33,210 nt of DNA from Cylindrodendrum hubeiense. Its lineage: Eukaryota; Ascomycota; Sordariomycetes; Hypocreales; Nectriaceae. A program made the translations under genes and the position numbers. The stretch covers positions 1 through 33,210 of the forward strand of contig JAANBB010000431.1 in NCBI GenBank assembly GCA_014621425.1, written 5' to 3'. Positions 10,557 through 28,120 of this stretch are shown here, piece after piece (position 1 is the stretch's first letter; each line of letters opens with the position of its first letter). The notes under the pieces are model-generated. The model did not search any database. It saw only the letters and a list, made by a program, of their open reading frames with translations, and had not been told where the DNA came from.

Positions 10557-13500
10557 ATGGAAGAGCTTGCTATAGCCCAAGTAGCAGGCTCGACTTGCTT
10601 GCTTGCCTGGGATCAGTCGTTTGGACCTCGAATAAATAAGTCTTGCCGGTCATTCGATTTTACCCTGCAATTTGAAGATGTCTTTTTCGCCTGCCTACCA
10701 GCCGCAGTCTTTATCTGCCTGCTGCCATGGAATGTTTTTCGGTTGCTGAAGAGCGCCCCGACCAGCTCGATTAATTCCAAGCTTCAAATTGGCAAATTGG
10801 TAAGCTGAGGTCATTGGGGAATTCAACCACATGGGAGAAGCTTACCATAATTATCATTCAGATTGCACTCGGGGGGCTTCTCATTACCCAACTCGCATTT
10901 TTAATCCTGCGAGCTCAACATGAATCATTCAAAACAGCTGCCTCATTGGCGGCTGATATTCTAAGTCTGACAGCTACAATCGGCGCGATACTACTTTCAT
11001 ACCTCGACCACCAGCGATCTATCCGTCCTTCCACGCTTCTGAGCCTCTACATTTCCGCGTCAATTGTTCTATCTATTGCCCGAATTCGAACGCTATGGCT
11101 TATGGCACCGAGCGCTCCAGAACCGGCTGCTTTCACCGCGGTATTCATTTTGACCATCATTGCTTTCATCCTTGAATCCATTGAAAGGAGGTCGAGCTTG
11201 AGGGTATCCCAACGGCCTGGCATGTTGAAAGAGTACGCACCAGAACAGTATAGCGGACTTTGGGTGCGGACGAGCTTTGCCTGGCTGCTGGTCACATTAC
11301 GTCTCGGGTACACCAAATTTATCGCGGTAAATGACCTACCTATGCTGGATACGCAGCTTCGGAGTTCTGTGCTACGACAAAAGCTATTATCTACCTGGGC
11401 AACTTGTGAGTTAGTTCGGTAGCAATTTATTCTCAGCGCTAATCATGAATAGACAATCAGCAAGAGCGTCATAGTCTACTTCGTGCATGTTTTCGCGCTT
11501 TCTTCTTCTCCTTCTCGTCTGCAATTATCCCACGTCTCTGTCTAACCGCCTTCACCTTTGCGCAACCCTTTATGGTTGAGACCACGGTGAAATTTGTTGC
11601 ACAAAATTCACCGGATAGTACGTATGGAAAAGGACTAATTGGTGCCTGGACCCTTGTTTACTTGGGTCTTGCTGTGAGTAATCTCAATGTCCTCGTTGTG
11701 TCAATTATGATCTTACTAATGCCCAATTATAAGACGTCTACTGCGATCTACCAATACCAACTGTTTCGATTCGTCACACGCCTTCGAGGAGGTTTAACTG
11801 CCCTAGTATATCAACGAACCTTGGAGATACGATCCGTTGATTCAGAAGACATCACTGCAGTGGCTTTAATGGGAACAGACATACCACGCATCGTCGAGTC
11901 ATTTCGTGCAATTCACGAAATATGGGCGACAGTACTTGATATGTCTATCGCAGTATGGTTGCTAGAGCGACAACTTTCTGTCGCCTGTGTCGCACCTGTT
12001 GTTGTCGCGATCAGTACGTTCATAGCGAGAAAGAGATTTCTCATACTGACAAGGTCACAACTGACGTGCTCATTTAGTTTTTATCGCGATTACTTCGAAA
12101 CTTTCGGCCTCAACTAAACGTGAACAACGTCGATGGATTGAGAAGGTCCAGGAGCGACTTCGTATCACCACTGCTATGCTTGGTGATATGAAAGCCGTCA
12201 AGATGCTTGGCCTATCGGAAATCATGTCTACCGTTATCCACAAGCTCCGGCGTGATGAAATCCAGACATCCAAAGGATTTAGAATACTCCTTACCGTGCG
12301 AATCGTTCTCTGTAGGTTTCTTAACCTTTTTTTTTCTTTTCCTTTTTATTAACTTGAGTCTTAGCAAATTGTGTTCTCAACATAGGGCCAGTGGTCACCT
12401 TTGGGATGTATGCAATTATTGCTGTCTACTGGAAGAACGAATCTCTTCTGACAGCACAAGCCTTCACGTCAATCACACTCATCAGCTTGCTAACAAGACC
12501 TGTTTTGATGTTTATACAAGCCCTTCCGGATGTTCTGCAGTCTATCGGTAGCTTCGATCGCATCCAGGAATATGCCAACTATTACCCGAAGAAGCCGACA
12601 TCTGACCACAGCACAGATGCTGCTCCTCACGACTCCAGGTCTGTTATCAGTCTCCAGTCTTTGACTGGTGGGGTACAATACTCTTCTGCACGCGTTTCAG
12701 GGGATCATTTTATTTCACTACATGGCCAGAGCTTCAGTTGGAAACCAGCGGGACCTACAGTTCTAACCGACATCGAAATGCGAGTCGACTCTGAGAGCTT
12801 GACTGCCATTGTGGGCCCTATTGGAAGCGGAAAGACGTCTCTTTTGGAAAGCATTATTGGAGAGACAATCCCCATCTCTGGAACCATTTCCAAGGGAGTT
12901 GGATCTGTCGCGTACTGCCCTCAGGAACCGTGGTTGGAAAATACGACGATTCGTAAGAACATTCTCGGAGTGTCACCGTATGATCCAAAATGGTACGAGA
13001 CGGTTCAAAATGCTTGTGCATTGGGCCCAGATCTCGAGCAGATTAAGCTTGGGGATATGGCAGCTGTTGGGAGTAAAGGATGTAGCCTAAGCGGTGGCCA
13101 GAAACAACGAATCGTAAGTGAACATTGGCTGACAAAGGGACAACACTAAACATTCAAATAGGCTCTTGCACGAGCTGTGTACTCAAGGTGCTCGGTTATT
13201 TTCCTCGACGATACATTCAGCGGCATGGATGCTCGTACAATCGAACACATCTCCAATTCTTTGCTGGGACGCAACGGGATCTTCAGAAGATACCGAGTTA
13301 CCGTCGTCCTAGCTACTCACAACCGTGAGTTACTGAGACGAGTATCTTGCTGATAAAGGATGCTAACAGAACCTAGACAAACTCATGGCACTCGCTGACA
13401 AGATCATCGCCCTCGAAGGGGGGAAAGTTGTCGAGGTCGGAAGCCCTGCAGTGCTCCTTACAAGCAATGGCTACATCAACCATCTTGGAATTACACTGAA

Positions 13501-15691
13501 TGATGAGGCTGTCGAGGAGAAAACACAGCACATGACTCACAACGATTCTACCGACGAAGAATCACGAGTATCTGAAGAACTTATGGAAGAACCAGACGCG
13601 ATTGCGGAAGATGCAAGGCGTAAAACCGGGGACCCTTTGGTTTACAAATACTATTTTGAAAGCTCCGGATGGTTTATCGTGGGTCTGTTCGTATTGACAC
13701 TGGCCTTGTGGGTCTTTTGCTTAGAATTCCCGAGTAAGTCTGTCGACAACGACCAGTTTCCCTGTGGCCTGCGATTGAGCTAACTCACCATCTAGCAATC
13801 TGGTTAAAATGGTGGTCCGAAGCCAATGCCCTCCACCCGAATGAGAAAATAGGCATGTACATGGGAGTCTTTGCTCTTTTCGGCGCCGTTGGAACCTTCA
13901 TGGTGTTCGCAGTCTGTTGGTAAGTCTTCGCATCCACTTATTCAGCAACCACATATCATCTTACAAATGTCACAGGCTCTTATTCATCAAAATTATATCG
14001 AACACGGGATACAAGTTGCACAGTGATTTGCTGAAAGCGACGTTGAAGTTAGTATAACCCTCTATTCTAACCAAAATGAATACTAACATTCTCGTTTAGG
14101 GCTCCTTACCGATTCTTCAGCACCACGGATACAGGAAGCCTAATCAACCGGTTAGTATCTGCTAAATTTCCACATGCAACATATAGTGACATCATAGCGC
14201 AGATTCAGCCAGGATATGGAGTTGATTGATATGGAACTCCCCATGTATATGGTGAACTACACGACAAGTAAGTCATCCATTCTACTCCCATATCACAATC
14301 TTGTTTGTAAAATAGGACTAATGACCCATATGATAGGTGCCATGATGTGTGTTGCAAAGCTCATAATCCTAGTGATATTTTCCAAATACCTAGCAGCGAC
14401 GGTCCCGGTGATCGCTACCATGCTGTTTTTCTTGCAACGATTTTATCTCAAAACCTCACGCCAAGTCCGGCTTTTGGGCATCGAAGCCAAGGCTCCCCTC
14501 TATACTAGCTTCCAGGAGACAGTTGTTGGGGCACCGACAATCCGCGCTTTCGGCTGGCAACAACGCTATCAGGCCCGCAATGACGTGCTCATCGACACCA
14601 GTCAGCGTCCAGAATATCTCCAGTACTGCATTCAACAATGGCTCACCTTTACAATCGATATCATCGTCACTATTATAGTTGTTATTTTGCTTACTATTGT
14701 GGTAAAATTGAGAAGCAAATTCGACGCTGGTAGTGTCGGTGTCAGCTTGACTGCCGTCGTATCGTTTAACAATGCCCTCAGCCGTGTTATTCAGATGTGG
14801 ACGGCCATGGAGTCTAGCATCGGGGCTGTAAACAGGGTTCAAAGATTTGTTGCTGAAACTGAATCAGAGGGTACTGGTGAAGGGGGCGCCGGCCCAAAAG
14901 AGCCCTCAGACTGGCCAAAAGATGGCTCGGTTGAGTTCCTGAATTTGGTGGCTTCCCATGGGTACGTATCATCTTGCGATTTGCGCAAACATTGTGGAAA
15001 TTATACTAATCACTACAATAGACCTGACTCCGATCCCGTCCTAAAGGGTGTAAGTCTCTCCGTCAAACCGGCCGAGCACATTGCCATCTGCGGCCGCTCT
15101 GGAAGCGGCAAGACCTCTCTTATCCTTTGCCTTCTTCAAATGCTCGATATTCAGAGTGGAAACATCAACATCGATTCCGTCTCAATCGCATCTCTCAGTC
15201 CATCGCATTTACGCTCAAAGGTCAACGTTATCCCACAGGATCCCTTCCTCCTACCTGGGAGTGTCCGGTTTAATATAGATCCTTTTGGCGAAGCATCGGA
15301 CGACGAGATCATCCGCGCGCTAAATCGAGTGGGATTATGGGAACTTATCAAGGAGCAGGGGTTGGGCAAAGAGATGGATTCCGCGTCTTGGAGCGCGGGC
15401 CAGAAGCAACTGCTGTGTCTTGCACGAGCCATGGTCCGGCGCAAAAAGGTAATCATCTTTGATGAGGCTGCCAGCAGTGTCGACAGCGACACTGAGCGCA
15501 TCATCCAGGACATCATTGACTCGGAGTTCAAGAACTGCACGGTGCTCTCTATTATGCACAGGCTTCACTACGTCACCAAATACGATCGTGTCGCGCTGCT
15601 AGACGCGGGGACGTTGATAGAGTATGATCAACCATTGAAGCTGTTGGCTGAACAGTCAAGCTTTCGGGTGTTGTATGAAAGTCATAAGTAA
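10557..15691 (+). CDS. ABCC-family full-length ABC transporter (MRP type, with TMD0)
   Basis: Fourteen exons: 10557-10799, 10862-11405, 11453-11673, 11734-12013, 12078-12311, 12386-13113, 13162-13324, 13377-13733, 13796-13919, 13976-14047, 14100-14150, 14203-14267, 14337-14961, 15022-15691. They sum to 4377 nt, or 1458 aa. Order is TMD0 (about 1-200), TMD1, NBD1, TMD2, NBD2. NBD1 has Walker A GPIGSGKT near 651, signature LSGGQKQR near 742 and Walker B FLDD; NBD2 has Walker A GRSGSGKT near 1260, signature WSAGQKQ near 1359, Walker B IIFDEA and an SIMHR H-loop. Asp in place of catalytic Glu in NBD1, with Glu kept in NBD2, is normal for ABCC exporters. It probably exports drugs, toxins or conjugates at the plasma or vacuolar membrane. 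The ATG lies in CCATGG; in-frame sequence extends upstream without another ATG. Splicing of the stop-free introns 3, 11 and 13 is inferred from family alignment. Confidence 0.9.
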
Positions 15692-16294: not shown

Positions 16295-18048
16295 TTAATA
16301 CGTGTATCTAAAATTGTGGTTTTGACAATCTGTCAAATCTTCCCTCTCTGCCTCGAGTCCAACTTCTGCGTTGTTATGCGGCTTCCCATACTGGTCGTCA
16401 CGGCGCTTGTTCTCGACAATGCAGAGGACATAATATGTGAGACCCATAGCAGCCATAACAGCAAACGCACACATGATTGACCCAATGCCAAGAGCGTACT
16501 TAGGGGCCTGGTTGGTTCGATAGAACTGAGGGCCGATAATATTTCCAATAGCTGAAATCGACGACGTGTTAGCAATCAACCTTCTCGTTGAAGACGAATT
16601 GGAATACCTGGAGAATGGGATCCTCGTAGAAGCGGCATCAAACTGACCATAAATGACTGCAATAGAAACTCCCATGAAGCTCTTCTTCGTTGCTCCAGCT
16701 GTATTGGAAGAAGACAGACTGAGTAAAAAGACCCAAGGAGGGTTGTAAAATCCCATGAGGTAGACGCCAGCAAGAGAGGCATTTCTCTGTGTCTCGGAAT
16801 CAAGAACATGTACCATGACGGCACCAGTCATGCCGATCAAAGCCGAGCCAATCCAAAAGACACACCGCATTTTCGGTACAAAGAATGCGATAGTTGTGAG
16901 TATCGCCTGGCTGACCATGGCGACGGCTGCCTGCGGAGTGGCCATCAGAAGCGTCTTGGTCGTGCTGAAGCCATAACCCGCAATGATGAGCGGGTTGAAG
17001 TTGGTGATACCGGCGTTGGCGATCGCATAGCCAAAGACACCTACCCATATACAGAAGCATTTAGGGTCATGCAGGGCTTCAATGATTTGCGAAGTGTTGA
17101 ATTTCTAGATGATTGCTGCGTCAGAACTGGGCGTGCATAAAAGCCGCGTGGATAGGTCCTACCTTGTGCGATTCGACACCAGTTTGATTAGAAGCAAGTC
17201 GAATGACAGCCAATTTCTTCTCCTCGGGTGTGAAGAACCAGGCTTTAGAAGGGGAATCGGGCAGACCAAAGAAGACAAGGAAACCAGTGAGAACGGTAAC
17301 TGCACCGTAAATAAGGAAAATATACTAGACACGCAGAAGTTAGTCAATTGAAGGGGTATTTGCAGCAATCGTGATAAATCTTACTCTCCACGTCGAAAGC
17401 GATCCCTTAATTTGTCCGATGGCGTACGACAAGATGCCGCCAAATACACCAGCGAACGTGTTGTACCAGAACGCAGTTCGGAGCGGCTGCTCTTCTCGTC
17501 GATACCACATCGAGTTGACGATCATCATGGCTGGCAGAACAGCTGCCTCGAAAACCCCCAGGAGGAAGCGGATGGTTGCCAGCCCCGCGAAATTGTGGCA
17601 CAGGGCCATAAAACAGAGCACAGCACCCCAGAGCACGAGGCAGACTCCAATGTATTTTCCGATGGGAACCTTCGTCATCAGCCAAAGAGTGGGGAATTCC
17701 ATGGCTAGATAGCCAAAGTAGAAGATGCTACTGAGCCAGCTGTATTCCTGGCCTTGGAGGTTCGCATCTTCCTTGATGCCGAGAACAGCCGCGTATCCCA
17801 GGGCGTTCTGGTATCGCAGTCAGTAAAAGATGGGGCCAGCATAGAATGGGCCTAGCTACCTTGTCAAGGAACGCAAGTGTCATGCTGAGAACAGCCAGGG
17901 GCATCACCACGAGGTCTGTCTTCAGCAGGAGCCGTTTTGCGTCGGCCTTGCTTATCTCAGTGTCGGCACCATGGCCGTGGTCCGTAGACACAATGTCTTG
18001 CATCTTCTCCTTCGAGGCATCATCGCAGCTCGGCTGCTGAGTATCCAT
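16295..18048 (-). CDS. MFS permease, Dal5/allantoate-permease (ACS) family
   Basis: Five exons on the minus strand (18048-17860, 17807-17385, 17324-17163, 17104-16648, 16551-16295) give 495 aa; introns are 52, 60, 58 and 96 nt. Family landmarks include LAFLDKNALGYAA at TM1, RFLLGVFEAAVLPAMM in the N half, FFGLPDSPSKAWFFT before the central loop, NAGITNFNPLIIAGYGFS, and IGNIIGPQFYRTNQAPKY near the end. Members (yeast Dal5, Tna1, Vht1 and relatives) import small anionic or nitrogenous compounds by proton symport: allantoate, nicotinate, biotin, dipeptides. The exact substrate cannot be read from sequence. An in-frame Met at 18111 would add 21 residues, but the start at 18048 gives the usual short hydrophilic N terminus. 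It is divergent from the zinc-cluster gene; the shared promoter holds three TCGG-N6-CCGA sites and several GATA sites. Confidence 0.9.
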
Positions 18049-18194
18049 TGCCACTAACACGAGAGGGAGGAAATTTATGTGATGGGTGACAATGGCGAGC
18101 CTGAAAATCAATGTCCGTCTCGAGACTTGTGTGAGAACCTTCTCTGTGGGGAATTGGTTCCTTCAATCGGTCATTGTCGATCACCAACCCGTGG

Positions 18195-18202
18195 TATATA
18201 TA
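18195..18202 (-). promoter_or_regulatory. Possible TATA box of the Dal5-type permease
   Basis: TATATATA lies about 147 bp upstream of the permease ATG at 18048. It is palindromic, so it could in principle serve either direction, but it is nearer the permease. Confidence 0.3.
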
Positions 18203-18354
18203 TTTCACACAGCGTCTCCTTATCGCGGACTGCGCTGGTAGTTATCTGCTACCCCAGCTTTTCGTACGCGACGTTCGTCAGGTTCGTTTTCGCACGAAGT
18301 GGGTTCAGGTTGATGGTATCATAGTTCCACCTGATAGCGTTCAGTCCAGGATTT

Positions 18355-18368
18355 TCGGTGGACACCGA
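18355..18368. promoter_or_regulatory. Zn2Cys6-type site 1: TCGG-N6-CCGA
   Basis: TCGGTGGACACCGA is almost wholly self-complementary (only the central GA is not), so the stricter TCGGTG-N4-CCGA form is met on both strands. CGG triplets inverted six bases apart are the known target geometry of Ppr1 and UaY. It lies 221 bp upstream of the regulator ATG and 307 bp upstream of the permease ATG. Confidence 0.7.
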
Positions 18369-18376
18369 GTTGTGTG

Positions 18377-18390
18377 TCGGGCGCCACCGA
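18377..18390. promoter_or_regulatory. Zn2Cys6-type site 2: TCGG-N6-CCGA
   Basis: TCGGGCGCCACCGA; the minus strand fits TCGGTG-N4-CCGA. It begins 22 bp after the start of site 1, close to two helical turns, which would put two bound dimers on the same DNA face. Confidence 0.7.
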
Positions 18391-18499
18391 GAAAGTGCAG
18401 GCCGAGCTTCTGGACGTTGTCGATTTTGCGGAGCTTCTGGAGACTACCGAGCAGGTTTATCGATAAGGCCCTGGAATGCCTACTAAACTGATTTAAGGT

Positions 18500-18513
18500 T
18501 CGGTCGTCACCGA
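18500..18513. promoter_or_regulatory. Zn2Cys6-type site 3: TCGG-N6-CCGA
   Basis: TCGGTCGTCACCGA; the minus strand fits TCGGTG-N4-CCGA. It lies 76 bp upstream of the regulator ATG, a position suited to autoregulation. Confidence 0.65.
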
Positions 18514-18588
18514 GAGCGTACGACTTCATCCCTCGGACTTCAGATCATGTTCGTCAGCTCCCTCGGCCTCCGACGAGATTAATCGAAC

Positions 18589-20889
18589 ATGGATGCTGAA
18601 TCGGACCCTCGTCCGTCTGTTTCCAAGGCTTGCAGCCGGTGTCATGCAAGGAAAGTGAAGGTAGCTAGTCTCATTCGCCATTCTCCATCCCCAATACGTT
18701 CTCGGCTAACTCCGGCGATTCAGTGCGACCAGAGGGTCCCCAGATGTTCAGCATGCATACGACAAGATGACAAGTGTAATATCACAGAATGCGTTGCTTA
18801 CCCATTTTCGGTGGTCCAAGGCCTCCAGGATCAGATTCGCAATCTTCAAGCCAGGCTCGACATCGCTTCCGCCACGGGCAGCCATCCTGAGCGAAACACC
18901 CAGCGTCAGCCTCCTGTTCCAGATATTCCATCATTGCCTATACAGCAAGAAAGCCACCTGCAGGTAAATAATGATAAAGCAGCTTGGCCGTCTGATTTCC
19001 TCAAGGAAGCTGAAGAGGTCGGTGTTCTTGCAATCGGAGGTCCAAATCCATACTCCGAAAATAAATATGGTGAGGAAATCCATCACATCCCACCCGGTGA
19101 TCATTCCCAATCGATGCTTACCATCTCCTTTTCGCAGTCGGGAGTGCAACAGGGTCAACATTTGCGAGAATATTTTTCAAGCAGCTGAACCTCGTATCTC
19201 CAACTGTTTCTGGCATTCTTGGCGGGAGCTTAGAGCAGTGCCCGTCCGAGAGATACGCTGCACTGCCTCCACAGCCGATAGCTCGATCATATCTCGCAAG
19301 TTACATCGCTCGTGTTCATTTATGGTGGCCTTTCCTCCAGCTTCCACTCCTTCGAAGGACCTTCCAGAGTATATATCAAAATCCAAGGCAATGCACCGAC
19401 CACGAGAAATTTATCGTTTTTATCGTTCTCGCCCTTGCCAGCGGCGAAGATGTTCAGCACAAATCCCAGCCGGGAATGATGGATCTAAATGACTCTGCAG
19501 CATACTTTCAAACCAGCCTACGATTCTTCAATAGCTTTCATGATTATCCCAGAGATCTTTTTGGGATTCAAGCTGTTATGCTCTTGGCCATTTGGATGTT
19601 GAATTCAGCCGCTAGTAGCCACAGTAGCGACCTTTGGCAGCTCAGTCGATACATAATGTCTGCCGCTATTGAATCTGGCCTCCACCGTCACAATACCGAC
19701 TGGGGCTTCACTGCCGAAGAGGTCGAGGTTCGAAACCGGACTTGGTGGTGCGCATACAACTTGGAACGGTTCGTCGATCCAGTCAATGGTTACAGACTTA
19801 ACTAACGCCTCTCAAAAGACAGGTCGCTGTTCTCACAGGTCGTGTTTTGTCCGTCAGAGACCATGCAATTCATGCATTGCTCCCATCGCCATCGTCTTTC
19901 GATACCCTCAGCAGCGCAGAAGCAATGGTGGCCCCGGTCTTCCATAAACACACCGTCGAATTATGTCGCCGAATGATATCTCTGAGACGCATTTCCGGGC
20001 GTATCCTTGAATCAATATATATTGCAAGGGGGCCCGATGGTAAGTGCATGGACACTTCCTTTCAGCAGATCTGTGCTAGATCAGACGAAGCTCGCAAAGA
20101 CCTGGAACAGTGGAAACGGCAATTAGACGAACTGGACCTGAAGCCTTCACGAGAATATTCCGAGATGAAGGTGGAATACTGTCTTCTCCAACTTCTGCTG
20201 CATCGTCCTTCCCCTACCTTTATGGTCCCGTCGCGTCAAATGACATCATCCTGTTCCAAGGTCGCCTCCAGTGCCATACACCAGTGGTCGAGCATCGAGG
20301 CAGAATTCGGAATTTCGGCAGTGTGTCGATGCTTCAGCCAACTTCATTCGATTCTCGTGGTCGGTCTAGCCGCTCTATATTGTGATTGGTATGTGTCATA
20401 CATAAATAGGTGTCGAGTTCTCTGCTAACCGACCACAATCATAGGCAAGCCATGGCGATGCCTCAGGCTGGAGTCCAAAACACACGCAGACTTCGTCGTC
20501 ACGAAAATGATACAATCGTCTGCCTCGGCCTCATTGATCGCGGAATTTCTCACATGAAAGCCATGAATCTCATCAGATACCGAGACTTATTCCAAGCGGT
20601 GAGAACCAAAGTCTACGCAGATGCGACATCCATGAATGCAAATACCGATGATTCCCCGACACATCCGATGGATATTCCCTCTGTAGAGCTCTACAGTGCA
20701 TCTGAAGGCCTAGACTTTGGAGGTGAAGATAGCGTGATGTATCCTGCAGGTGACGGTATGGAGACTTATCTCAGCCAGGTCAACGACTTCCTAGAAGGTG
20801 GTATGGTTGACATGGACGATACCCTAAACGCGTGGTATGATGCGGTGGTGCAAGATCTGCAAAATAATCCAGCTCAAACTTTTATGTGA
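18589..20889 (+). CDS. Zn2Cys6 fungal transcription factor, probable local regulator
   Basis: Five exons (18589-18660, 18724-19069, 19138-19768, 19819-20388, 20445-20889) give 687 aa. The N-terminal zinc cluster has Cys at 15, 18, 25, 32, 35 and 42 (C-x2-C-x6-C-x6-C-x2-C-x6-C). A short linker and a probable dimerising coil (VQGLQDQIRNLQARL, about 54-68) follow. The middle part, including FIVFIVLALASGE, AAYFQTSLRFF, LLAIWML and RNRTWWCAYNLER, matches the fungal-specific transcription factor domain; the C terminus is acidic, as in activation domains. Such proteins bind inverted or direct CGG repeats as nuclear dimers. Sites of that kind lie in its own promoter and before the aminotransferase, so it is the obvious candidate regulator of the module. 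It is too short, and its linker too unlike, to be assigned as UaY. Intron 1 sits inside the zinc cluster and is stop-free and frame-neutral. The exon 4 acceptor (AAAAG before ACAG) was chosen by frame. Confidence 0.9.
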
Positions 20890-21385
20890 CGATTTGGAGG
20901 GAAGCTTGAGGTCCTAGTATTCCCAGTGGCTTTATTTAATCTGCGTTCAATTATAATTACACTCGCCTATTCGAATGTACTGAATATTGAAACGCATGCA
21001 CTATTCTTACAATCGTGAAAACCACCAAACTTCCATCAACTGACTCGTGTCCAAATTTCGCACCCTCCTTATCTGTCTTCTTTTAAGACGAGGATACCCG
21101 GTTTAATGTGTAGACTCCGAACGATGGCGCCGTAAATAATTTAAGTGAGGGGTACTAGCATGTGTGGTCTAGGTGAAGGGGAGTCCACCAAAACTGGGGA
21201 GGCCGAAGCGTCCCCTAGTGAGGCCTCAACGCAGCTCATGACTATCACGAATTAGGACTGACGCGCCATCCGATTACGATTTTGAGCGAGAGGACCAGGC
21301 ACTTATCTGCGCTCTCTACCGGCAGTGCTTACCAGTTGCGCATTGAACTTGATAACTTGGTCTCCGAAGCTCGCCCCTATGGGTC

Positions 21386-21399
21386 TCGGTGGTGGCCGA
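21386..21399. promoter_or_regulatory. Zn2Cys6-type site 4: TCGG-N6-CCGA
   Basis: TCGGTGGTGGCCGA fits TCGGTG-N4-CCGA on the plus strand. It ends about 205 bp upstream of the aminotransferase ATG at 21605. Confidence 0.7.
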
Positions 21400-21423
21400 A
21401 GGAGGTGTGGGTGGGCCCAGAGC

Positions 21424-21437
21424 TCGGTGTCGTCCGA
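21424..21437. promoter_or_regulatory. Zn2Cys6-type site 5: TCGG-N6-CCGA
   Basis: TCGGTGTCGTCCGA fits TCGGTG-N4-CCGA on the plus strand. It begins 38 bp after the start of site 4 and ends about 167 bp upstream of the aminotransferase ATG. Confidence 0.7.
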
Positions 21438-21604
21438 GAAAGCCTCATACTCTCGCCTCATTGAACACCAGACCATGACTTCAACCAAGATTAACCACTT
21501 CCTTATCGCTGGTGTGCACTCGTGGTCTCTGGGCTTTTAATATCAGCCGATTTCCAGACAAACAAGCCAGCCACCATCACCTTATCAGACTTCGAAATTT
21601 CATC

Positions 21605-22755
21605 ATGGTAGCTTCACAAACCAAAGACAGCAACGCCATTGGGGCAACCCATGCTACAGTACCAAATGCTAAGAATGAGTCTATTCTAGTGAGTATGATG
21701 TTCCGAGCACTCCAGCTTGGTATAGACAAAAACGCTAACTATCTAGGTTGGGATGCGCGATGGCGTAACAGGGGAGTTCAAACTGGTTCCCAGAGACGAG
21801 GCTGTTGTGTCTGTATTTGACTCAAACTTCCTTGTCGGCGATGGTATCTGGGTTCGTCAGCTTTCATACCCAGATATTTCAAAGATTCTAATCGCCTCTA
21901 TAGGAAGGCATCCGTGCCAACAAAGGGCGTGTTCAGTTTGCTAAAGATCATTTGGATCGTCTATTCCAAGCGGCAAAAGCCATGTACATGGACTTGGGCC
22001 TGACCAAGGGAGAATTACTTGGTCTTATTCACAGCACGCTTGATGCGAACAATATGTGTGAGGATTCTCACGTTCACATGAGGCTGGTAGTCAGTCGTGG
22101 TCTCAAGTCCACGCCTTATCAAAATCCCCACGTCAATATCGGTCTGCCGCTCATCGTTATAATTCCCGAAGTCAAGGCAGTGGACCCATCATCAAAGGCC
22201 CGAGGACTGAGGCTTGGCACCACATGGGTTCGCCGCGGACCACCCGATGTCAAGGATGAGCAGTGGAATCACATTTCCAAAGCAACCGACGTTCAAGCTT
22301 GCATCAGCGCAAACGTTATGAATGTTGATGAGGCGCTCATGTTGGATCTACGAGGATTCGTAAAAACATGCAACTCGGTCAATTTCTTCATCATCCGCGG
22401 CAACGAAGTCTGGGCGCCTACCAAGGATAACCAGATGCAAGGAATTACTCGCCAACGAACGATTGATGTTTGCCGCGCCAATGGCATCATTGTCCGAGAG
22501 CTCGATTTCGCATTAACCGAGGTATATGGAGCCGACGAGGCGTTTTGCACGGGAACTTTCCCGTCGCAGATTCACGTGGTAGAAGTCGACGGACGTCAAA
22601 TTGGCGACGGACAGAGAGGGGCCATTACCGAGAAAATTCAGCAATTATATACTAAGCTTGTGAAGAGCGATGTGGAAAGGTCGCGGGAGGAGATTTTGGC
22701 CGAAGTGGAGGCACCACGGGACCTGAGCTTTCTGAAGACATTGTCTACTACCTAA
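21605..22755 (+). CDS. Fold-type IV PLP aminotransferase (D-amino acid/branched-chain type), non-canonical
   Basis: Three exons (21605-21688, 21747-21851, 21904-22755) give 346 aa; introns are 58 and 52 nt. Class IV features include FDSNFLVGDGIWEGIRA in the N-terminal domain, the presumed Schiff-base Lys189 in HISKATD, GITRQRTIDVCRANGI after the cofactor region, and EVYGADEAFCTGTFPSQ as the phosphate-side loop. Where most class IV enzymes have a Glu that contacts the PLP ring nitrogen (as in VTEG/VSET-like motifs), this protein reads GFVKTCNSVNFFI, with Thr218 at that place. The enzyme should still be PLP-dependent. It may act on D-amino acids, branched amino acids or an unusual amine, and sequence does not decide. 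It follows the zinc-cluster regulator in the same direction and carries two of its presumed sites. No leader or membrane segment is seen, so it is probably cytosolic. Confidence 0.88.
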
Positions 22756-23125: not shown

Positions 23126-24565
23126 ATGAGTGCGCCAAGTGTCGCCGAGAAAGCTGCCTGCGGATCGCGTAAGGCTGTGTCCATCGCAGGTAGGACGACG
23201 AAAACAGCAGTTATTGTCTTAGTAAAGGGTGCTGCTGGAGTCTAATTTGTCGCACTAACAATAGTTACAGATCTGCCCAATGAAATCCTGTTTCACATAC
23301 TTGATCAGCTGTCAGGGGCAGAAAAGTTGCGACTCGCGCAAACATGTCGCAACATATCAGCCCTGGTTCTCTCCAAATTATACAGAGACGATGCAACAGA
23401 CATGACTTCATATCGCCCTGTTCCTTTCTCCCTTATATGGGGCTGCTGGTTTGGGGTCATGTCTGCAGTCAAGGCGTCGTTTGATGCCACCTCAGAATTG
23501 GGTCTGGATATCTCAACAATGATCCAAAAACGTATTCATACGACGAGCCTTGTACTATCACGCGTTAAACAAGCCATCAGGAGAGGGAACATAAAGCTCA
23601 AAGGGTGGTATGGCATGTGGGGCCAGGACTCGCACTTGCTTCACCTTGCCTGCCTTCGCGGGAACACCGCAATTGCAGAGCTTCTAATAGAGAATGGCAC
23701 AGAGGTGGACAGCTTGGATGCAGAAAGTCACACGGCACTACACTATGCCCCAAATACCCATGTGGTGAGTTTGACTAAATATGATACGGCGCCTCAGTGA
23801 CTAATGTATGCACAGGTGCGGTTTTTACTACAGAAGGGGGCAAACGTCAATGCGGCAGACGATTCGGGCGTAACGTCCCTCTGCTCCCTGTTACGATGGA
23901 GGTCTTGGGCCTTAGAAACCTGGAGTACAGAGCCTAATGTTGCCGGGGGCGGTGGAGCTCTCGACCCATCACATACAGTTCAGGATGTGAGCGGCGCTAT
24001 CCGGTTTCTTATCCAGGAAGCCGGTGCCAACATATATGCCCAGCGTTCATGGGACAGTCACCCCCTTCGCTGGGCTATATCAGCCGAAAATACAGAAGGC
24101 GTCAAGCTTCTTCTCCAGGCGGGGGCTCCGACGAACCCGATCAATCCCTCGACTGGGCAAAGAATATTACTACTGAAAGAGGCACTGGCCAATAAAGAGA
24201 CCTTGGAGATCGTCAACATGCTTCTCGATGCTGGAGCAGAAGTTGAGCCCGATGAGTTTCCACTTAAGGAATATCATACCCAAGTGCCGATCATCATATT
24301 GATATCATTTGCGAAACGAAGCCCCGAGGTTCAGGTCAACATTGCGCACAGAATCTGCAAACGGATCAGGGACATCAACGCAGATATCGGGGGAGAAACA
24401 ACTCTATTTTATTACCTGTATGCAATGCGAATGGACATTGCCAAGGTGATAATTCAGTATGGGGCGGAATGGAAACATCGAAGGAGCGAATTTGACGAGG
24501 CTACTTGGAAGGAACTTCTAGGGGACTCCTACGAACAACCCGAGGAAGTTGAAAATCAGGAGTAG
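23126..24565 (+). CDS. F-box and ankyrin-repeat protein
   Basis: Three exons (23126-23189, 23271-23764, 23816-24565) give 435 aa; introns are 81 and 51 nt. An F-box starts at about residue 22 (DLPNEILFHILDQLSG, then LRLAQTCRNISALV). Ankyrin repeats follow, recognisable by HLLHLACLRGNTAIAELLIE, RFLLQKGANVNAADDSG, HPLRWAISAENTEGVKLLL and a more diverged NMLLDAGAEVE. F-box proteins recruit substrates to SCF (Skp1-cullin) ubiquitin ligases, and the ankyrins would bind the target. Such genes are numerous and variable in filamentous fungi, and the target is unknown. Exon 1 rests on the ATG at 23126 and a join that restores the F-box start, so the N terminus is less certain. Its promoter lacks the module's palindrome. 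Confidence 0.8.
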
Positions 24566-26142: not shown

Positions 26143-28120
26143 ATGCCTCTGCCTACGTCCTCGGTCTTCCAGCCGTCCTCGGCGGACTTCGCCAAGTTCC
26201 CTTCTCGGCGAAGTGTTGTTCACAGCACTCAGGGCATCGTTGCTTGCTCCCAACCTCTTGCTGCCAATTGCGGTCTCGAGGTCCTCCGAGCTGGAGGCAA
26301 TGCTGCCGTGAGTATCACCATATCGAGCCCGCCATGACCCCCGCATTGTGTTAACCCAACCCCAGGATGCCGCCGTTGCAGTTGGTAGGAAACGACAGTA
26401 ACCTAGTAATTGCCTCAGTATGGATCCTAACAACTCACAGCTGCTGGCCTCAACATGACGGAACCATGCTCCACCGGAATCGGTGGTGACATGTTCATTC
26501 TCTTCTACGATGCCGCCACCAAGCAAGTGAAGGCCATGAACGGATCGGGCCGCTCCGGAGCCAAATCCACCCTGGAAACCATTCGCAAGGATCTCAGCAT
26601 TCCTGGTGGCACTGAGGGACAGATTCCCATGTCCAGCGTTCATGCTGTTACAATCCCCGGCGCCGCGGCGGGATGGGTGGACACCGTGGAGAGGTTCGGC
26701 AGTGGGAAGCTCACTCTGAGCCAAATCCTCGGGCCCGCCGTCAAGCTGGGCGAAACGGGTTTTCCCGTGTCTGAAGTGGCATCGCACGCTGTATGTTTGG
26801 GACCTCAACTTGGCGTTCAGGGCTGACAATTCGCAGTGGCAAATCTCGGAAAAGTCTCTGAGAGCGGCCTCTCCTAACTACTCAGAGATGCTTAAGAATG
26901 ATCCTGCCGCAAAGAACGGGGTCAGAGCACCTCGGCCAGGCGAGATCATAAAGCTCCCTGAATTAGCAAAGACATTCCGCACTCTGGCCACCGAGGGAAA
27001 AAAGGGCTTCTACACCGGCCGCATCGCGGAAGAGTACATCAAGGTGGTGCAGGATCTGGGCGGTCACCTGGAACTGGCCGATCTCGAACATCACCTGAAG
27101 CAGGGCAGCGAGCCGGTCGAACCCATATCGCTCAAGTTCCGAGGTCAGGGACTCACCAGCGATGGCAAGGACGAGGGCGTTGAACTGTGGGAGCACCCAC
27201 CGAACGGACAGGGTATTGTTGCGTTGATGGCACTGGGCATCGTCCAGGAGCTTGAAAAGCAGGGCAAGATTCCCCAGTTCGGTCCCGAGGACTTCAACAC
27301 GACGCCCTACCTCCACGCCATCATCGAGGCTCTCCGACTCGCGTTTACAGACGCAAGCTGGTACGTCACAGACCCCAACGTCACAAAGGTGCCGACGGAG
27401 GGCCTGATCTCTCCGGAATACCTGGGCGAGCGGGCCAAGATATTCGACCCGTCAAAGGCACATGACCCCGTAACGCACGGAAGCCCGCCGTTTGTCTCGC
27501 CGGCCATTCAGAGCAGCGACACCGTCTACTTCACCGTCTCCGATTCGGCCGGCAACGCTGCGTCATTCATCAACTCCAACTACGGCGGATTTGGCACGGC
27601 CATCATCCCCAAGGGATGCGGGTTCACACTGCAAAACCGGGGTGCCAACTTTTCGCTCGCCGCGGACCATCCCAATAAGCTCGAGCCCCGTAAGAGGCCC
27701 TACCACACTATCATCCCGGGAATGGTTACGAACCTCAACGATGGGTCGCTGCACTCTTCGTTTGGCATCATGGGCGGTTTCAATCAGCCGCAGGCTCACC
27801 TGCAAGTCCTTCTCGGTCAGGTCGTTGCAAAGCTCAACCCGCAACAAGCTCTGGATGCCCCGAGAATATGCATCGGAGCTGGCATGCCGGAGCACGGAGG
27901 AGTGCTCGACTGGACGGTCAACGTAGAGGAGGGAGTGGCGGACGAGACTGTCGAGGGATTACGAAATCTGGGACACAGGGTAGTCGTTCTCAAAGACTGG
28001 AAGAGAGGCATGTTTGGCCGGGGTCAGATCATCCGGTACACGGTTGACCCAGTCGACAAGACGCCGCTGTGGTCGGCAGGAAGCGACTTGAGAGCGGACG
28101 GAGCCGCATATCCTTTGTAG
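26143..28120 (+). CDS. Gamma-glutamyltransferase-like Ntn hydrolase (no signal peptide)
   Basis: Four exons (26143-26307, 26366-26384, 26441-26790, 26837-28120) give 605 aa. Exon 2 is only 19 nt and completes the conserved GGNAADAAVAVAAGLN stretch. Family landmarks are [37 protein letters not shown], the presumed self-cleavage Thr407 in [11 protein letters not shown], and [10 protein letters not shown] with NRGANFS downstream. The small subunit would be residues 407-605, normal for the family. Gamma-glutamyltransferases cleave glutathione or other gamma-glutamyl amides. The lack of a signal peptide or N-terminal membrane anchor sets it apart from secreted fungal Ggt and resembles the YwrD-like subgroup, so it may be intracellular and its substrate need not be glutathione. 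It converges with the glutaredoxin gene, 104 bp away. Confidence 0.9.

Follow-up and report, generated by a model that had tools for sequence, protein, structure and literature searches.

Three neighboring genes in the genome of Cylindrodendrum hubeiense share five copies of the palindrome TCGG-N6-CCGA in their two promoters. The question is which protein reads these sites and what it does with the genes beside them. The window, meaning the whole stretch of DNA that was analyzed, is 33,210 bases long and is one entire contig (C370) of a 47.5 Mb genome in 798 contigs. The introns and the gene families point to a filamentous fungus. The initial annotation had described the genes as a trio. This was borne out by spliced models, which were built by hand from splice sites, and by Pfam domains for all three. 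The gene models also set the limits of the two promoters:

16295..18048, minus strand: MFS transporter gene (spliced model, 5 exons, 495 aa; PF07690, MFS_1)
18049..18588, no strand: shared divergent promoter of the transporter and regulator genes, with sites 1-3
18589..20889, plus strand: Zn2Cys6 regulator gene (spliced model, 5 exons, 687 aa; PF00172 and PF04082)
20890..21604, no strand: promoter of the aminotransferase-like gene, with sites 4 and 5
21605..22755, plus strand: class-IV aminotransferase-like gene (spliced model, 3 exons, 346 aa; PF01063, Aminotran_4)

The transporter and regulator genes form a divergent pair in these models. MFS_1, Zn_clus with Fungal_trans, and Aminotran_4 each scored over the curated Pfam cut-off; for the regulator protein, PF00172 reached 26.5 bits (cut-off 21) and PF04082 reached 78.2 bits (cut-off 23). 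The transporter is of the anion:cation-symporter type, and its nearest solved relatives are VGLUT2 and a D-galactonate transporter. TIGR00893 scored under its cut-off on this protein.

Other frames were also found in the window. ABC transporter frames (TMD0, two ABC domains and a membrane domain) at 10775-15688 adjoin the trio, and F-box and ankyrin-repeat frames at 23246-24562 lie immediately downstream of it. Both are without the motif. A frame at 785-2383 has the domains of the Agd3 deacetylase (PF25115, PF25116 and PF25117), a gene familiar from galactosaminogalactan clusters. There is also a gamma-glutamyltranspeptidase frame at 26720-28117 (PF01019).

The palindrome occurs five times in the window, at 18355, 18377, 18500, 21386 and 21424, as had been claimed. 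All five copies lie between gene models, in the stretches 18049-18588 and 20890-21604 (1,255 bp in total), so the described confinement to two promoters is correct. About 0.5 chance matches per window had been estimated; in 100 dinucleotide shuffles the average was 0.40, the highest count was 3, and none had five. The stricter form TCGGTG-N4-CCGA likewise fits all five sites; the match is on the minus strand at 18377 and at 18500, and on both strands at 18355. The motif was found to be longer still, and asymmetric. CTCGGTG-N4-CCGA, with one fixed base beyond the form in the initial annotation, is present at every site. The two middle bases of the inner N4 are C and G, each in four of the five sites. 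The palindrome observation is confirmed and is stronger than was stated at first. The exact matches are as follows:

18355..18369, minus strand: site 1, CTCGGTG-N4-CCGA
18377..18391, minus strand: site 2, CTCGGTG-N4-CCGA
18500..18514, minus strand: site 3, CTCGGTG-N4-CCGA
21385..21399, plus strand: site 4, CTCGGTG-N4-CCGA
21423..21437, plus strand: site 5, CTCGGTG-N4-CCGA

No other gap between TCGG and CCGA, from 0 to 20 bases, has more than two occurrences in the window. A single TCGG-N3-CCGA is present at 18563-18573, just before the regulator ATG and within the divergent promoter. Its gap is that of GliZ sites, but it may be due to chance.

The five sites were picked out from many possible patterns, and such a cluster could in principle have arisen by chance or by local duplication. 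To allow for the freedom in picking a pattern, all tetramer inverted repeats (256 x 21, gaps 0-20) were counted in both promoters. TCGG with a gap of six was the top pattern with five occurrences. The runners-up, CGGT with a gap of four and CTCG with a gap of eight, had two each, and three of these four occurrences sit on the five sites (CGGT/4 at sites 1 and 3, CTCG/8 at site 5); the fourth is CTCG/8 at 18562. First-order Markov randomisation was repeated 300 times; the most frequent pattern occurred once in 91 of the runs, twice in 202 and three times in 7, and no tetramer repeat ever reached five. The core rate in the genome predicts just 0.019 copies of TCGG-N6-CCGA in both promoters, against the five found there. 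The flanks of the sites do not align. In a common orientation they are identical at 5 to 12 of 25 positions on the left and at 5 to 10 of 26 on the right, and the five sites are therefore not recent copies of one segment. Chance or duplication is an extremely improbable origin for this cluster. The extensions TCGGTG and CTCGGTG were picked after the sites had been seen; chance extension of all five would have a probability of about 4e-5 for TCGGTG and 8e-8 for CTCGGTG, because there are 93 oriented matches of the first type and 27 of the second per 711 core places in the genome, the five sites being left out of these counts.

A similar density of the motif elsewhere in the genome had been raised in the initial annotation as evidence that would count against its reading. 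The reading survived the search, in which the extended motif had no other two places within 60 kb. Across the 47.5 Mb, the core TCGG-N6-CCGA was found at 716 places, TCGGTG-N4-CCGA in 99 oriented matches and CTCGGTG-N4-CCGA at 32 places. Backward-pattern controls for the two longer forms gave 127 and 39; these controls are not matched for CpG, so that reliance was placed on the shuffles and on clustering. There is no overall enrichment of TCGGTG-N4-CCGA in the genome; five of the 32 CTCGGTG-N4-CCGA places are at the trio. Among the other extended places (27 in total), 25 were examined. Nineteen of these are inside stop-to-stop frames of 200 aa or more, and six are outside such frames, of which two loci (L038 and L010) were read. 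At L038 (C545:48553), a lone CTCGGTG-N4-CCGA was found immediately upstream of an ABC transporter frame, where it is possibly a further target or a chance match.

The exact pattern CTCGGTGNCGNCCGA has five places in the genome, three of them at the trio. Allowing one mismatch raises the count to 116 oriented matches (103 for the backward pattern), and the closest pair outside the trio among the matches listed is 3.2 kb apart, on contig C337. Tandem pairs of TCGG-N6-CCGA within 30 bp number six in the genome, two of which are at the trio; the backward control gave none. Beyond pairs within 30 bp, there may be further clusters of the bare palindrome elsewhere. What was observed directly is that the sites exist, are rare in the genome and are confined to the trio, together with the identities of the three genes.

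From these observations we infer binding, the identity of the binder, activation and an inducer. The initial annotation had read the palindromes as the sites of the zinc-cluster protein encoded between them. This is supported by the Zn2Cys6 and fungal regulator domains of that protein, which make it the putative binder. In addition, the best solved match of regulator residues 1-93 was to Ppr1, which was weak (E 2.7e-5 over 49 residues), followed by Gal4. Ppr1 is described in the cited portion of its source as binding CGGN6CCG (PMC11534201). The regulator gene adjoins its putative targets and also has palindromes in its own promoter. It is likely, as judged from the sequence, that the five palindromes are sites of this protein and that it activates the trio in a self-regulated circuit. 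A Zn2Cys6 dimer would read the two inverted CGG triplets across the six-base gap, with extra contacts on one side through CTCGGTG. The regulator would then switch on its own gene, the divergent transporter gene and the downstream enzyme gene. The result would be a substrate-induced, self-regulated circuit for uptake and conversion. The likeliest substrate would be a small anionic nitrogen-bearing compound that is taken up, converted and sensed by the regulator.

The placement of the sites can be considered with regard to each of the three genes. Measured back from each ATG, the site centers are at 82.5 to 227.5 bp for the regulator gene, where site 3 is the closest at 82.5 bp, at 313.5 to 458.5 bp for the transporter gene, and at 174.5 to 212.5 bp for the enzyme gene, where site 5 is at 174.5 bp. 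Distances of this kind are expected for upstream activating sites. The distance from site 1 to site 2 is 22 bp, or about two helical turns. The CTCGGTG halves of all five sites are oriented along the transcription of the transporter or the enzyme gene, and not along that of the regulator gene. With five sites, this shared orientation is only suggestive. The same two features, the closeness of site 3 to the regulator ATG and the direction of the extended halves, would also suit a local regulator that binds here as a repressor, if only of its own gene, and not as an activator of the whole trio. Pathway regulators of this domain make-up are mostly activators, and repression is considered quite improbable here.

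A different regulator could also read the sites. UaY binds TCGG-N6-CCGA, the same half-site and spacing, and the trio could be part of the regulon of a purine regulator of the UaY/Ppr1 type. Candida Ppr1 is described as binding CGGN6CCG at purine catabolism genes in the cited portion of its source (PMC11534201). In the genome studied here, CGG-N6-CCG with one outer base off was found upstream of a uricase frame, at a distance of 373 bases from it (L139:2902), and upstream of one purine-permease frame, roughly 200 bases away (L141:3302). In 25 other loci, CGG-N6-CCG had a background of about 0.2 per kb. These two cores are possibly the UaY-type sites of this genome, and since they lie upstream of two purine genes, a second N6 regulator may act in it. 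However, the uricase and purine-permease loci examined have no perfect TCGG-N6-CCGA, and the CTCGGTG extension is absent from both cores. Each of these two genes has a single core and no cluster. The extended motif clusters at the trio and nowhere else. At two further permease genes, on C8 and on C533, no CGG-N6-CCG was found in the sequence examined. Furthermore, none of the genes in the trio is a known purine gene by Pfam. The CTCGGTG extension appears to be what distinguishes the trio from the purine-gene cores, and it is unlikely that the trio belongs to a purine regulon.

The self-regulated circuit of the local protein, which is the preferred reading, can be compared with the loci of the regulator's paralogs. 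One paralog, at C1:510196, has a stretch that is 28% identical. The C1 cluster (L147 and L148; C1:511000-530000) contains the regulator paralog, a PrpF-family gene, an aconitase-family gene and a mitochondrial carrier-like frame, the last at 22.0 bits and slightly below the cut-off. It resembles itaconate or aconitate clusters. Five copies of TCGG-N6-CCGA are present in it, three between the regulator and PrpF frames and two between the aconitase-like and carrier-like frames. The aconitase-like pair has the form TCGGAT-NN-ATCCGA; the genome contains four such places, and this pair accounts for two of them. The three palindromes on the regulator side have looser inner bases. Among the six best paralog loci, C1 is the one with N6 palindromes clearly upstream. 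Another (L136) has one N6 palindrome 51 bp before half of its zinc cluster, another (L138) has one downstream of the gene, and the remaining three have none. Therefore, the N6 frame recurs at one relative, where the inner bases differ, and is not common to the whole subfamily. The palindromes of the C1 cluster speak for the preferred reading, and the scarcity of clear upstream sites at the other five loci speaks against it.

The trio promoters were also searched for other motifs. HGATAR is the consensus for GATA factors, and it was found repeatedly in both:

18220..18466, no strand: five HGATAR motifs between the transporter and regulator genes; 1.33 were expected, and at least five occurred in 3 of 300 randomisations
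21069..21587, no strand: six HGATAR motifs ahead of the aminotransferase-like gene; 1.99 were expected, and at least six occurred in 3 of 300 randomisations

These counts are reached by 2.8% and 3.5%, respectively, of same-length stretches elsewhere in the window, which makes the enrichment weaker. The motifs hint at nitrogen control, and control by a GATA factor could perhaps be added to that by the local regulator. CreA-type, TATA and CCAAT motifs were not enriched in the trio promoters.

The enzyme gene is the least usual part of the trio. Its protein has the class-IV aminotransferase fold, as indicated by PF01063 and by fold matches, and it has Asn185 in the column of the lysine that holds PLP. 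The catalytic lysine is absent. Lysine is found at this column in 5mqz, in 5e25 and in a paralog on contig C690. The enzyme model was based on an alignment of 42 of 80 relatives, with only exon 3 folded. The best sequence match, which is also among the best fold matches, is an aminotransferase-like protein from Variovorax paradoxus (PDB 7z79). It has asparagine in the place of the PLP lysine, as in the trio enzyme, and 9j32 is its N174K form. This protein is bacterial and is about 40% identical to the fungal enzyme. Asparagine replaces the PLP lysine in the 7z79 structure and in all 80 bacterial relatives aligned, a set that leans to the near relatives of the Variovorax protein, having been taken from a prokaryote scan with that protein as the query (150 found, 80 loci kept). 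A prokaryote scan with the fungal enzyme as the query found no relative.

The genes beside the bacterial relatives were explored as well. Of the 80 loci, 21 were taken; 10 of these gave no frame under the filter, and the neighborhoods of the other 11 gave 65 neighbor frames, 35 of which were scanned. BPD_transp_1, an ABC-transport permease domain, was the commonest (7 of 35), and the rest were mixed. No pathway could be named from the 35 frames scanned. In the paper listings examined, no function was found for the lysine-less group, which has crystal structures. To a specialist, the unusual part would be a lysine-less enzyme under the control of the proposed circuit.

A broader proposal can be made, although it is tentative and rather doubtful. 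The trio could be a private circuit for an undescribed fungal pathway, in which the lysine-less fold-IV protein is central and has a chemistry that differs from classical transamination. Regulons that share CGG-N6-CCG could be kept apart by the bases beside the triplets, with CTCGGTG on one side at the trio, an AT within each half at the aconitase-like promoter of C1, and neither of these at the purine genes. The set of regulator, motif and targets is sharply defined from sequence alone. Clusters that have a common frame but differ in the adjacent bases would offer a way to study how cross-talk between zinc-cluster paralogs is prevented. Should the circuit exist for the sake of the lysine-less enzyme, its inducer would point to the substrate of that group of proteins.

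A self-regulated zinc-cluster circuit with CGG-N6-CCG sites is of an already familiar type. The trio is like the systems of Ppr1 and UaY in having a Zn2Cys6 domain and CGG triplets inverted across a six-base gap. It differs from them in the one-sided CTCGGTG constraint and in its targets, which are a transporter gene and an aminotransferase-like gene, and not known pyrimidine or purine genes. As with GliZ, there are TCGG/CCGA half-sites in the promoters of the regulator's own cluster (PMC7022936). The spacing given for GliZ in the cited portion of that source is three (TCGG-N3-CCGA), whereas it is six at the trio, and the trio is without a biosynthetic core gene. TerR of the terrein cluster is also a zinc-cluster regulator acting at the genes of its own cluster, and its consensus likewise starts with TCGG. 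In the cited portion of that source, its CGG repeats are direct, while those at the trio are inverted (PMC4360782).
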